The notes under the pieces are model-generated. The model made no database searches, had not been told where the DNA came from, and worked only from the letters and a program-made list of their open reading frames with translations. Below are positions 22,880 to 49,788 of a stretch of DNA of 64,000 nt, in pieces (the stretch's first letter is position 1; each line of letters begins with the position of its first letter). The DNA lies in the NCBI GenBank assembly GCA_002189035.1, contig CM007989.1:7731501-7795500 (forward strand), written 5' to 3'. Origin of the DNA: Utricularia gibba (lineage: Eukaryota; Streptophyta; Magnoliopsida; Lamiales; Lentibulariaceae). Made by a program: the position numbers and the translations under genes.

Positions 22880-23700
22880 TCACGGGTTTGAATCTGGATG
22901 AAAGAGGGCATCTCTGGAAGCCATTGTAGGGCCGGGTGAAGAGGAAGATCCAGTTGTTGAAAGCAGCTGCACTAACGCACTCATGGCCCGAACCTACGCG
23001 AAATTTCAGCAGTCATCATAAATGTAGGATGATAAAAGGGGCATGATGAATGGAGAATATACAAATGATGATTCCTTTTTATGCGTGTGAAGTACATCAT
23101 GAGAGTATAATATACCTGCATTTCCAGAGCCGGTATATAATCCATAGTTTCTTCCAGGGTCACGTGAAAAGGCTGTTTCCGGCAACCGGGTATCAACCTG
23201 CTCAGGAGCCTGGCTCTCCGCTGGAAGGCCGGTAGATCCTTTGGTTTCAGGCAGGGGACAGTAGCCTTGGATTTTTTGGTTAACCGGCTGTTCCCGGTGA
23301 CCACAGCCCTCGTCAGTTTCCGCTGTTGTGTCACCACGCTATTTTTCTTCAACAACTTCGGCTTCACACTGCTGGCGAAAATAGCCCTGCTCCACCGCGA
23401 GCGGCCTTTCGCCGTCGCCGCCAATGCTCTGTTTGCGGCGTCGCGCACGCGCTTCGGAAGATACGTAGGTTGTTTCCCTGACGCAACCCCTCTCATCCTC
23501 AGATGCCGCAGCGCTTGCGACAGTTTAGATGAATAAATTTGCAGCTGAGCATGCGAATTCCACTGAATCGAAGATTTGTCGTGGAGAAATTCCGGCTGAT
23601 TTCCAGTTTTCTTATCGATCACACTCTTCCTCCTCCGTCCGGCCGATGATGAAGCTTCGGAGTTCACCAATTGATTTGGCGACAACAGCGACAACGTCAT
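22880..23700 (-). CDS. Atypical bHLH protein, bHLH147/148-like (AIF family)
   Basis: Two exons: 23700-23116 and 22993-22880; 232 residues. A serine-rich start leads to IYSSKLSQALRHLR, then RVRDAANRALAATAKGRSRWSRAIF, a basic spacer, and an HLH: KDLPAFQRRARLLSRLIPGC, then LEETMDYIPALEMQVRAMSALVQLLS. The basic region lacks the His-Glu-Arg contacts needed for E-box binding, as in Arabidopsis bHLH147-150 (AIF proteins), which dimerise with other HLH proteins and repress growth downstream of brassinosteroids. Function inferred from the family. I start at the in-frame ATG 23700; the open frame extends further without ATG. The promoter side carries a G-box (24279). Confidence 0.88.
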
Positions 23701-24881
23701 ATTGAAACACGAATCGATGGAATAGGATCTGAACCAAATCAAGAAACCAATTGACTAGATCCAGACAGAAACGAAGCAAAACCACAGCCTAAAACTACTC
23801 GATCGGCATTCCAAATCATATTCAAGATCCACACACCTCGAACGAAAACAAAAAAAAAACACGAAGCTCAACGAAGAACGCAACCACTCCAACCACACCA
23901 CGGATTCAAATCAAATCCTCAAAATCGATCATCACCTGAAAACGCAGAGCAGAATCCCCACCGTCGCCTCAAAACGCTCCACTCCGCATCCACGCTCCCA
24001 CAGAAAAACGGTGCGGATTCAAGTTGGTGCCCAAAGCGTGAAAGGCGAGGGGGCCTTTAAAAGGAGATGGTGGATCAGCAGGCGAAACCGCGAAACGCAA
24101 GTCACATGAGCGGTCTGATGACCATGCGGGTCTGCTAAATTTTTCAATTATTATTATTACTCGCAATTTCCCGATATATTCCACTAATCATGTCATTAGC
24201 TGAACTTAATCACGCAGGATTACTTCGGAATAATATTTAATTTTAATGCATTATTTGCCAAGCTGTTGCCCTTTGGGCCACGTGCCATGTGGTGGATATG
24301 GCCCAAAAGCATCACACGTCCCATTCTCATGTGCGTTTCGGGTATCCGCTGCTCCCTTGTCTTGTCAACCTTTTCCCAAGTCGAGTCATTGTTATTTATT
24401 GCAGTAATTATGTTTATAAATTGGTGTTATTGGCATTATTTGTCCCCTGTCCTATCCATGAGTGACACGTGGATGAAAAAGACAGATGGACTTGATAAGC
24501 TATATTTGAACTATGTTTACATAAATAGGAGTATGTAATAATTATTGAAATTGTGTTTTTTATATAAATTTTGAAAATATTACAAGGTTGAGGAATATTT
24601 TAATGTTTTTTAGTGATTTTATTTAATATTAAATAAACTTGATAATTCAAAAGAATAATAAAAAATTGGAAGATGATGACATGCATATCTAGAGAAATAT
24701 ATATTTAAAATATTATTGTATTTTATATATATGTTTAAAATAGTTGAACAAAAACTATTTTTACAAAAATAAAAATTGATTTTTTTCTTTTTAAAAATAA
24801 AAATATTTTTAAATCATTTGTATTTAATAATAAATTGTTTTTAAAATATATATTATGAGTAATTTGGTTCTACGACCATTC
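23701..24881. other. bHLH promoter region and AT-rich spacer
   Basis: 23701-24130 is probably leader and proximal promoter of the leftward bHLH gene. 24540-24860 is AT-rich with repeated AAAATAAAAAT words. No gene seen. Confidence 0.45.
24279..24284. promoter_or_regulatory. G-box CACGTG
   Basis: Perfect palindromic CACGTG inside GGGCCACGTGCCATG, about 580 bp upstream of the bHLH start. It is a binding site for bZIP and bHLH factors such as PIFs. A single site; function is inference. Confidence 0.4.
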
Positions 24882-24965
24882 GGCCCAATCAAATAACCGC
24901 TTTTCAAAGCCCAGCCTAGTTGTATGGCGTACTTATTGGTCCGGCCCACGCATCTCAAACCCTAA
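24882..24965 (+). promoter_or_regulatory. Site II elements and telo-box, promoter of the snoRNA unit
   Basis: Three site II motifs in GCCCA orientation (GGCCCA 24882-24887, AGCCCA 24908-24913, GGCCCA 24943-24948) followed by a perfect telo-box AAACCCTAA (24957-24965). In Arabidopsis this combination marks ribosomal protein, other translation-related and snoRNA gene promoters. No ribosomal protein frame follows downstream; two box C/D sequences do, so I read this as a snoRNA promoter. Confidence 0.6.
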
Positions 24966-25232
24966 AACTCAAATTCAACCACAGTTTGCGGGCACTTGAA
25001 CCATTTCTCTTGTCGTCCACCGCACTTCGCAAAACTTCGGGTTTTCTGTTGTCTAGATTTGCTAGCTGCCTCTCCGTCGATTCGGCACGTACGTTGCCTC
25101 CATCGTTCGTGCTTGAGATTGAGGCAGGGAGATTTACGCGGGACAGTTGAGTCGCTCCGCCTGCGTTGTGAAACGGCGAAGTGAATAATGCGCCTGCTAT
25201 AAACCTGATCTAATTCTTTGTCCTTTTTTTTT

Positions 25233-25311
25233 CTCCCGATGATGGCATGGAATCTTTGAGACCTGATTGTGTATCGTTTGATGACAGCTATAAGCGATTT
25301 TGCTGAGGGAG
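25233..25311 (+). ncRNA. Box C/D snoRNA, predicted 18S rRNA 2'-O-methylation guide
   Basis: 79 nt with all parts in order: terminal stem CTCCC (25233-25237) pairing perfectly with GGGAG (25307-25311); box C ATGATGG (25239-25245, one mismatch to RTGATGA); box D' CTGA (25263-25266); box C' TTGATGA (25278-25284); box D CTGA (25303-25306). The 12 nt just before D', AATCTTTGAGAC, are the exact complement of GTCTCAAAGATT near the 5' end of plant 18S rRNA as I recall it. By the fifth-base rule the target is C38 in my own count of that end. I believe a plant snoRNA for this site is known (snoR66), but I cannot check. Structure is seen directly; target is recollection plus inference. Confidence 0.72.
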
Positions 25312-25366
25312 TTTGAATTAAAATATCTGATTTTTGAGAACTTCCTCTTTTCTGTGTTCCTTTGGT

Positions 25367-25450
25367 AGAAGTGATGATTGCACTGGGCTCTGAGCAGTTC
25401 CTACTGCACATTTTGATGCACAACGCAGCCTAGAAAGCTTAATCTGATCT
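25367..25450 (+). ncRNA. Second box C/D snoRNA candidate, possible 25S rRNA guide
   Basis: About 84 nt: perfect box C GTGATGA (25371-25377), D' CTGA (25390-25393), C' TTGATGC (25413-25419, one mismatch), D CTGA (25444-25447). The terminal stem is weak (AGA/TCT, with one unpaired A before box C). The D' guide GCACTGGGC is complementary over 9 nt to GCCCAGTGC, which I recall from the conserved LSU rRNA stretch ending CTCTGAATGTC. The base next to D' does not pair. Weaker than its neighbour, but the shared unit and spacing support it. Confidence 0.5.
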
Positions 25451-25888
25451 CTTTTGTTTTTTCGTGTTCTCTGGAATCTGCTTCTGATCTTTCAAGTACC
25501 CTTGCAATCAGAAAAGGTTTTTTGCTAGCAAATGATGAAGACTCAAGTTAATGTTTTGCCCGGATAGAACGGGTCAACAAACTGGAGTTTAGAAGAGCAA
25601 AATAGACTAGAAAACCAGACACCAGGATGCCTCTGTATATGTGGTCTTGAGATGATCGTGCTGCGGTTTTCATTATGGGAATTCTGTAACCTCGCCATGT
25701 TCATCATCATTTCACAGGGCTTATTACGACAAGCCTCGATGTGAAGGAATTCAACATACAATGGCGAATTGACATCAACATAGAAACTGTTCTTTTCATG
25801 TCACATGGCAATCAGAAAAGCATCTTCTTTATACTTATCCCCCATGCTTATTGAACCAAAGAGGTGCCAGAGAGGTGTAGAGCAGGAG

Positions 25889-26968
25889 TCACAGTTTCGA
25901 TGGAGTATTCTTCGAGCTTCGACGTGCTATAAACTCTTGCATTTTCTTGAACTGGTCCTTGGTCATTCCATTGTAATATTCATGAGCTCTTTTCTGCAAG
26001 ATAAAGCCTTTAGAAGCTCAATCCACTTCCACACCTGATATGATCAAGCTAGCTGTGGGTTACCTTCTCAAGGGCAAGGGCAGTGCCCAGATCCAGTTTA
26101 AGTCCATCGTTCAAGATGGCTTTGTACCGCACCACCAAATCCTGGTTGTTCTTGATTATGGCGTCTGCGATTTCCCGAGCTTTCCTAACAACCCCGCCTT
26201 CCTGCTCAACGACATGGTTGACCAAGCCCCATCTCTCAGCTTGTTCCGCCGTGATTGGTGCCGCCGTCAGAGACGCTTCACGAGCACGGCCTGGCCCGAT
26301 TATTCGTTGGAGCTTCTGGGAAAGTCCCCACGATGGAAATATCCCAAATCTGCAAAATGCTTGCTTATGATGGAGATATCCATAAGGCGAGGACGATAAA
26401 GTGAATCAGGACAGTAAACTGAATCTGCGTCGCCTCGATGGAGATATCCATAAGGCGAGGACGATAAAGTGAATCAGGACAGTAAGCTGAATCTGCGTCG
26501 CCTCTGAAGGTGGATGAAACAGAAAAACCAGGTGAGTTTTCAAGAACCGTACTTGGAATGAGTGTCCATGAACTTGGCATCCTTTGAGGCAACCAGAATG
26601 TCACAAGCCAACGCAATCTCGAATCCGGCGGTGACAGCGAATCCGTTTATGGCTCCGATTATAGGCTTCTTACACCGCTCCATTTGAACAACCGGATCGG
26701 CTTCCACATCCTTGACGTCGCCCTTGAACACGTCTTCCGCCGCCGTCAAGTCGACGCCCGAGCAGAACGCTCGTCCCGATCCTGTGAGAATTATAACCCT
26801 AACAGATTCATCCGCCGCCAGGACCTTGATCTCCTGACCCAAATCCGCCATCATCGACCTCGTCAAGGAGTTGAGCGACCCCGGCCGGTTTATAACCACG
26901 TAAGCTACACCCCCGCCGTCCCGGTGAACGAAGATGAGTTTCTCCGGCGGTGGTCTAGGAATTTCCAT
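25889..26968 (-). CDS. ECHIA: Enoyl-CoA hydratase/isomerase, ECHIA-like
   Basis: Three exons: 26968-26553, 26349-26064, 25993-25889; 268 residues. Crotonase fold markers: VAYVVINRPGSLNSLTRSMM, VRVIILTGSGRAFCSGVDL (oxyanion hole), PIIGAINGFAVTAGFEIALA, DILVASKDAKFMDTHSKFGI, SWGLSQKLQRIIG, then LNDGLKLDLGTALALEK and AHEYYNGMTKDQFKKM. Closest to Arabidopsis At4g16210 (ECHIA), a monofunctional enoyl-CoA hydratase in the peroxisomal beta-oxidation set. The C-terminus ends SKL, the classic peroxisomal targeting signal PTS1, which fits well. Catalysis: hydration of trans-2-enoyl-CoA. Intron 1 holds a 68-bp tandem duplication. Confidence 0.95.
26369..26504. repeat. 68-bp tandem duplication in ECH intron 1
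   Basis: Two head-to-tail copies, 26369-26436 and 26437-26504, 67 of 68 bases identical (A at 26418, G at 26486). Both start GATGGAGATATCC and end GCGTCGCCTC. It lies within the intron 26350-26552 and leaves the splice sites alone, so it should not alter the protein. Confidence 0.9.
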
Positions 26969-49321: not shown

Positions 49322-49417
49322 TGGGCCAGAGAATTTTTGGGCTGGTGATGAAACTGGTGAAGTGGGGTGGGTATATATACAGCGGCTCATTCTTGTTGGG
49401 CCTTCCCTACTGGCCCA
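49322..49417 (+). promoter_or_regulatory. Site II cluster and TATA box, eIF2-gamma promoter
   Basis: TGGGCC (49322-49327), TGGGCT (49338-49343), TGGGCC (49397-49402) and the inverse GGCCCA (49412-49417), with TATATATA at 49372-49379. Site II clusters are typical of plant translation-apparatus genes, which fits the eIF2 subunit downstream. Confidence 0.65.
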
Positions 49418-49788
49418 GAACACACAACATAATCGAAGGCCGTAGGCGATTCCGCGGCTACGCCCTGTCGCCGATTTCAGTCCGCCCTTTGTTACGCCGC
49501 ATTGCGCTCTGTCCTTATCTTCCGAGAAGTTTGCTCCGCCGTCGCCGCCTAATCGGAGGTGTAGTTCTGCTTGGGTACATAATGAATGCTTTTCTAGAAA
49601 TCCGAATCGCGGGTTTTGAGTAGCAATTGAGTGCTTTATTTTGTGGTTTATGCATTTTTGTAGTTTGGAGTTTTAGGTTATGGTTTTCTGGTTTCGGAGA
49701 CGTTTTTTATTTGATAGGTTGGGGTTTATGTGGTTTAGGGTTTCAGGTCATTGAGCTCTTGGTGTGAAGAGCTGCTGTACCTGTCAAA

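Follow-up and report, generated by a model that had tools for sequence, protein, structure and literature searches.

The region at 24882–25450 of the window, by which we mean the whole 64,000-nucleotide stretch of Utricularia gibba DNA that was analysed, is almost certainly (probability about 0.95) a dicistronic plant snoRNA gene of the RNA polymerase II type, which encodes snoR66 and snoR118 and is present in the genome as two paralogous copies. Its products are very probably this pair of snoRNAs, each guiding one rRNA methylation. What is observed directly is the sequence of both snoRNAs, the motifs of the promoter, the paralogous copy and the pairing of the guides with their targets. The original prediction had read the region as a snoRNA gene, and the Rfam matches, the paralogue and the guide-target pairing support that reading. 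The features of the locus are as follows:

24882–24887 (−), site II motif (TGGGCC), exact match
24908–24913 (−), site II motif (TGGGCT), exact match
24943–24948 (−), site II motif (TGGGCC), exact match
24957–24964 (+), telo-box AAACCCTA, which runs on as AAACCCTAAAA, exact match
25105–25212 (+), leader at the 5′ end of the presumed precursor; two blocks within it are conserved in the paralogue
25235–25310 (+), snoR66 box C/D snoRNA (RF00202, 57.9 bits against a gathering threshold of 43, model positions 1–76 of 76)
25239–25245 (+), snoR66 box C (ATGATGG), from the sequence, aligned to the Rfam model
25251–25262 (+), snoR66 D′ guide AATCTTTGAGAC, 12 Watson-Crick pairs to 18S rRNA, D′+5 at C38
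25263–25266 (+), snoR66 box D′ (CTGA)
25278–25284 (+), snoR66 box C′ (TTGATGA), from the sequence
25303–25306 (+), snoR66 box D (CTGA)
25367–25450 (+), snoR118 box C/D snoRNA (RF01424, 68.6 bits against a gathering threshold of 44, model positions 1–92 of 92)
25371–25377 (+), snoR118 box C (GTGATGA), from the sequence, aligned to the Rfam model
25380–25388 (+), snoR118 D′ guide GCACTGGGC, nine Watson-Crick pairs (D′+2 to D′+10) to 25S rRNA, D′+5 at a C fitting C2198
25390–25393 (+), snoR118 box D′ (CTGA)
25414–25420 (+), snoR118 box C′ (TGATGCA), from the sequence
25444–25447 (+), snoR118 box D (CTGA)

Searching the whole 64 kb against Rfam at curated thresholds returned only two RNAs, snoR66 and snoR118, with E values for the whole window of 2.8e-10 and 9.9e-10 for the two C/D families. 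The two box C/D elements that had been predicted to follow the promoter are thus these two snoRNAs, and the Infernal/Rfam search that had been suggested as a check places both families above threshold. A model-free scan of 1 kb for C/D grammar also detected snoR66, and picked up snoR118 with its C box displaced. Both snoRNAs have boxes C, D′, C′ and D. The terminal stem of snoR66 is clear, with five base pairs (CTCCC/GGGAG) immediately outside the boxes, and snoR118 is likewise enclosed by a stem. Neither RNA folds better than shuffled sequence, which for C/D RNAs says little. No third snoRNA emerged from the C/D grammar scan of 24961–25960 and of the paralogue, nor from Rfam at E values up to 10.

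Compared with their Rfam families, both snoRNAs in the window match the model over its full length and share the D′ guide and the predicted target nucleotide (18S C38 for snoR66, 25S C2198 for snoR118). In snoR66 nothing notable differs, and its box C ends in G (ATGATGG) like the family consensus. In snoR118 the loop that separates boxes D′ and C′ is shorter than in the family. Bases specific to the window copy, for example TTCCTACTGCACA, lie in the snoR118 loop. The stretch adjoining box D of snoR118 (25423–25443, GCCTAGAAAGCT) is shared by the two copies and the Rfam consensus and may be a second guide; no convincing second target for it was found in the rRNA sequences searched, and the accessible part of the Arabidopsis RiboMeth-seq study assigns SnoR118 one site only (PMC8053127).

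The guide of snoR66 was paired with the 18S rRNA of the same genome, the 5′ end of which (L008) was located by pattern search and confirmed as SSU. All 12 positions pair, with no mismatch and no wobble, and D′+5 faces C38. For snoR118, the 25S rRNA of U. gibba itself is present in the assembly as a degraded fragment only, and the target pairing was therefore made on the LSU of eukaryotic contaminants in public contigs, located by means of a 25S query segment; on one such contig (L011), Rfam identifies both the SSU and the LSU of a eukaryote in full. The first guide position of snoR118 is unpaired (U opposite U). The target C fits C2198 because the LSU bases at offsets +17, +23 and +39 from it are A, A and G, which match A2215, A2221 and G2237. 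In the Arabidopsis RiboMeth-seq study, 18S C38 is listed under SnoR66 and 25S C2198 under SnoR118 (PMC8053127). As judged from sequence, the predicted guides of both RNAs match the rRNA sites reported for their Arabidopsis namesakes.

In the genome (100.1 Mb, 516 contigs searched), each Rfam model matches two places, the window and contig C496. On C496, snoR66 lies at 286867–286939 (56.4 bits) and snoR118 at 287018–287095 (72.9 bits), both full-length model matches, and the cluster (286867–287095) has the snoRNAs in the same order, strand and spacing as the window, such that the pair is conserved as a same-strand unit. The conservation of boxes proposed as a check on the prediction is found here, in a paralogous cluster of the same genome rather than in a second species. 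Between the two copies, the segment from box C to box D′, which bears the guide, is 100% identical in both snoRNAs, and the whole snoRNAs are 85% and 93% identical. Outside the RNAs, identity drops to 54% for the promoter, 46% for the distal part of the leader and 41% for the DNA downstream. Identical guides amid drifted flanks form the pattern that would be expected from selection on the guides. The same minus-strand protein gene lies upstream of both copies (1 kb at 73% identity), and the two loci are therefore a segmental or whole-genome duplicate.

The surroundings of the two copies hold further observations. A non-coding block at 24261–24445 is 80% identical to its counterpart at the paralogue along roughly 190 bp, which makes it more conserved than the snoRNA promoter. 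It contains an ACGTG core as well as two site II motifs, and probably belongs to the promoter of a gene on the minus strand at about 22981–23754. Downstream, a conserved block at 25596–25663 was considered as a further snoRNA and rejected, as it reads as what is left of a minus-strand coding exon. Its counterpart beside the paralogue (L005:4905–5102, minus strand) has an open frame that ends in the membrane-helix-like PSQNYIYAGILVAGFLVYFAVIFFSTPAR, while the version in the window seems shifted and broken; the remnant likely marks a gene lost on the window side after the duplication. Further along, at 26369–26504, a 68-bp unit occurs as a tandem duplicate, 98% alike, apparently within an intron of a minus-strand enoyl-CoA hydratase gene.

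The promoter lies about 280 bp ahead of snoR66, as measured from the telo-box. The original prediction had described three site II motifs and a perfect telo-box, and all four were recovered as exact matches where it had placed them. Taken singly, these motifs are no commoner in the window than chance and mean little: four telo-boxes were observed against 2.4 expected from shuffled sequence, and 50 site II motifs (searched as TGGGCY) against 47. Unlike the single motifs, the combination at 24882–24964 is rare. The window has a single place where at least three site II motifs lie within 100 bp of a telo-box, and of 400 simulated windows (first-order Markov, 64 kb each, a telo-box of any register being counted) two contained such a cluster. 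No TATA box (TATAWA) was found near the telo-box, the sole match in 24861–25240 being at 25198, inside the leader. The paralogue has a telo-box (AACCCTAAAA, L005:4090) in the same aligned columns as that of the window, and one exact site II motif near it (L005:4056) compared with three in the window. Elsewhere in the window, at 49322–49743, four site II motifs are followed by telo-box repeats; the frames downstream, recognised by eye, look like a gene for translation initiation factor eIF2 gamma, in line with site II/telo-box promoters marking translation genes.

The layout corresponds to that of plant intergenic polycistronic snoRNA genes, in which the same motifs stand ahead of the first snoRNA, and two same-strand snoRNAs lie at a site between protein genes (Gaspin et al., 2010, PMC3022908; PMC4660826). 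In Arabidopsis, 34 of 40 non-intronic snoRNA loci (85%) have telo-boxes with site II or TEF1 boxes, and non-intronic plant clusters are transcribed by Pol II into pre-snoRNAs that are cut and trimmed to mature snoRNAs (PMC4660826; PMC3022908). From this literature we infer Pol II transcription, a common precursor, its processing and rRNA methylation in U. gibba. RNA polymerase II would be recruited through the site II and telo-box elements to make a single precursor, starting at roughly 24980–25050 and ending beyond 25450. Endonucleases would then cut around snoR66 and snoR118, and proteins bound to the C/D boxes would shield each snoRNA while exonucleases trim it to its mature ends. The mature snoR66 is predicted to direct fibrillarin to 2′-O-methylate 18S C38, and snoR118 to direct it to methylate 25S C2198. 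A tRNA-snoRNA dicistron transcribed by Pol III is disfavoured because ARAGORN found no tRNA gene in the window.

Two blocks of the leader are conserved in the C496 copy, 25105–25137 at 76% and 25174–25212 at 84%, compared with 46% in the DNA just upstream. Neither block has an Rfam match, a C/D pair or an H/ACA pair. The leader was rejected as an H/ACA RNA, as the window copy has a single ACA, the leader of the paralogue has none and both lack an H box. It was also rejected as a stable hairpin, since its folds are not better than those of shuffled sequence (z of −0.4 and −0.5). A genome search with the leader recovered only the window's own copy. It is improbable that the blocks make up another functional element at the RNA level, for example a small RNA not yet described or a signal for processing of the snoRNA precursor.

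These blocks, conserved outside the snoRNAs, also bear on whether the transcript is mainly a source of mature snoRNAs or is instead retained as a longer sno-lncRNA. Arabidopsis lncCOBRA1 resembles the locus in its two snoRNA domains, its telo-box and site II promoter and its intergenic position (PMC9175010), but both snoRNAs in the window have retained complete guides for known sites of methylation, and we consider retention as a sno-lncRNA improbable. The existence of a second copy, along with a neighbouring gene of which only a remnant appears to survive in the window (25596–25663), could suggest that the window copy is itself a decaying duplicate, with the C496 copy as the working one. Against this, every box and each D′ guide is intact and the same as in the C496 copy, within surroundings of about 45% identity, and the promoter in the window is the fuller one, having three exact site II motifs near the telo-box against one; decay of the window copy is thus very improbable.

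The prediction had also stated that there is no protein frame here. A 155-codon frame on the minus strand is in fact open from stop to stop at 24962–25429, so this does not hold for open frames as such, while it stands for conserved coding sequence: the frame has no Pfam match and, judged by eye, breaks into other frames in the paralogue. Since similarity between the copies also tracks the snoRNAs and not codons, it is extremely unlikely that the locus encodes a small protein.

The dicistronic snoRNA gene is thus a real gene of an ordinary and already known kind, and no new principle follows from it. Two well-supported non-coding genes are gained that an annotation based on proteins would overlook, and the promoter signature correctly foretold a snoRNA gene from sequence alone. 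In the small (100 Mb) genome of this plant, the snoR66-snoR118 pair has stayed linked through duplication.
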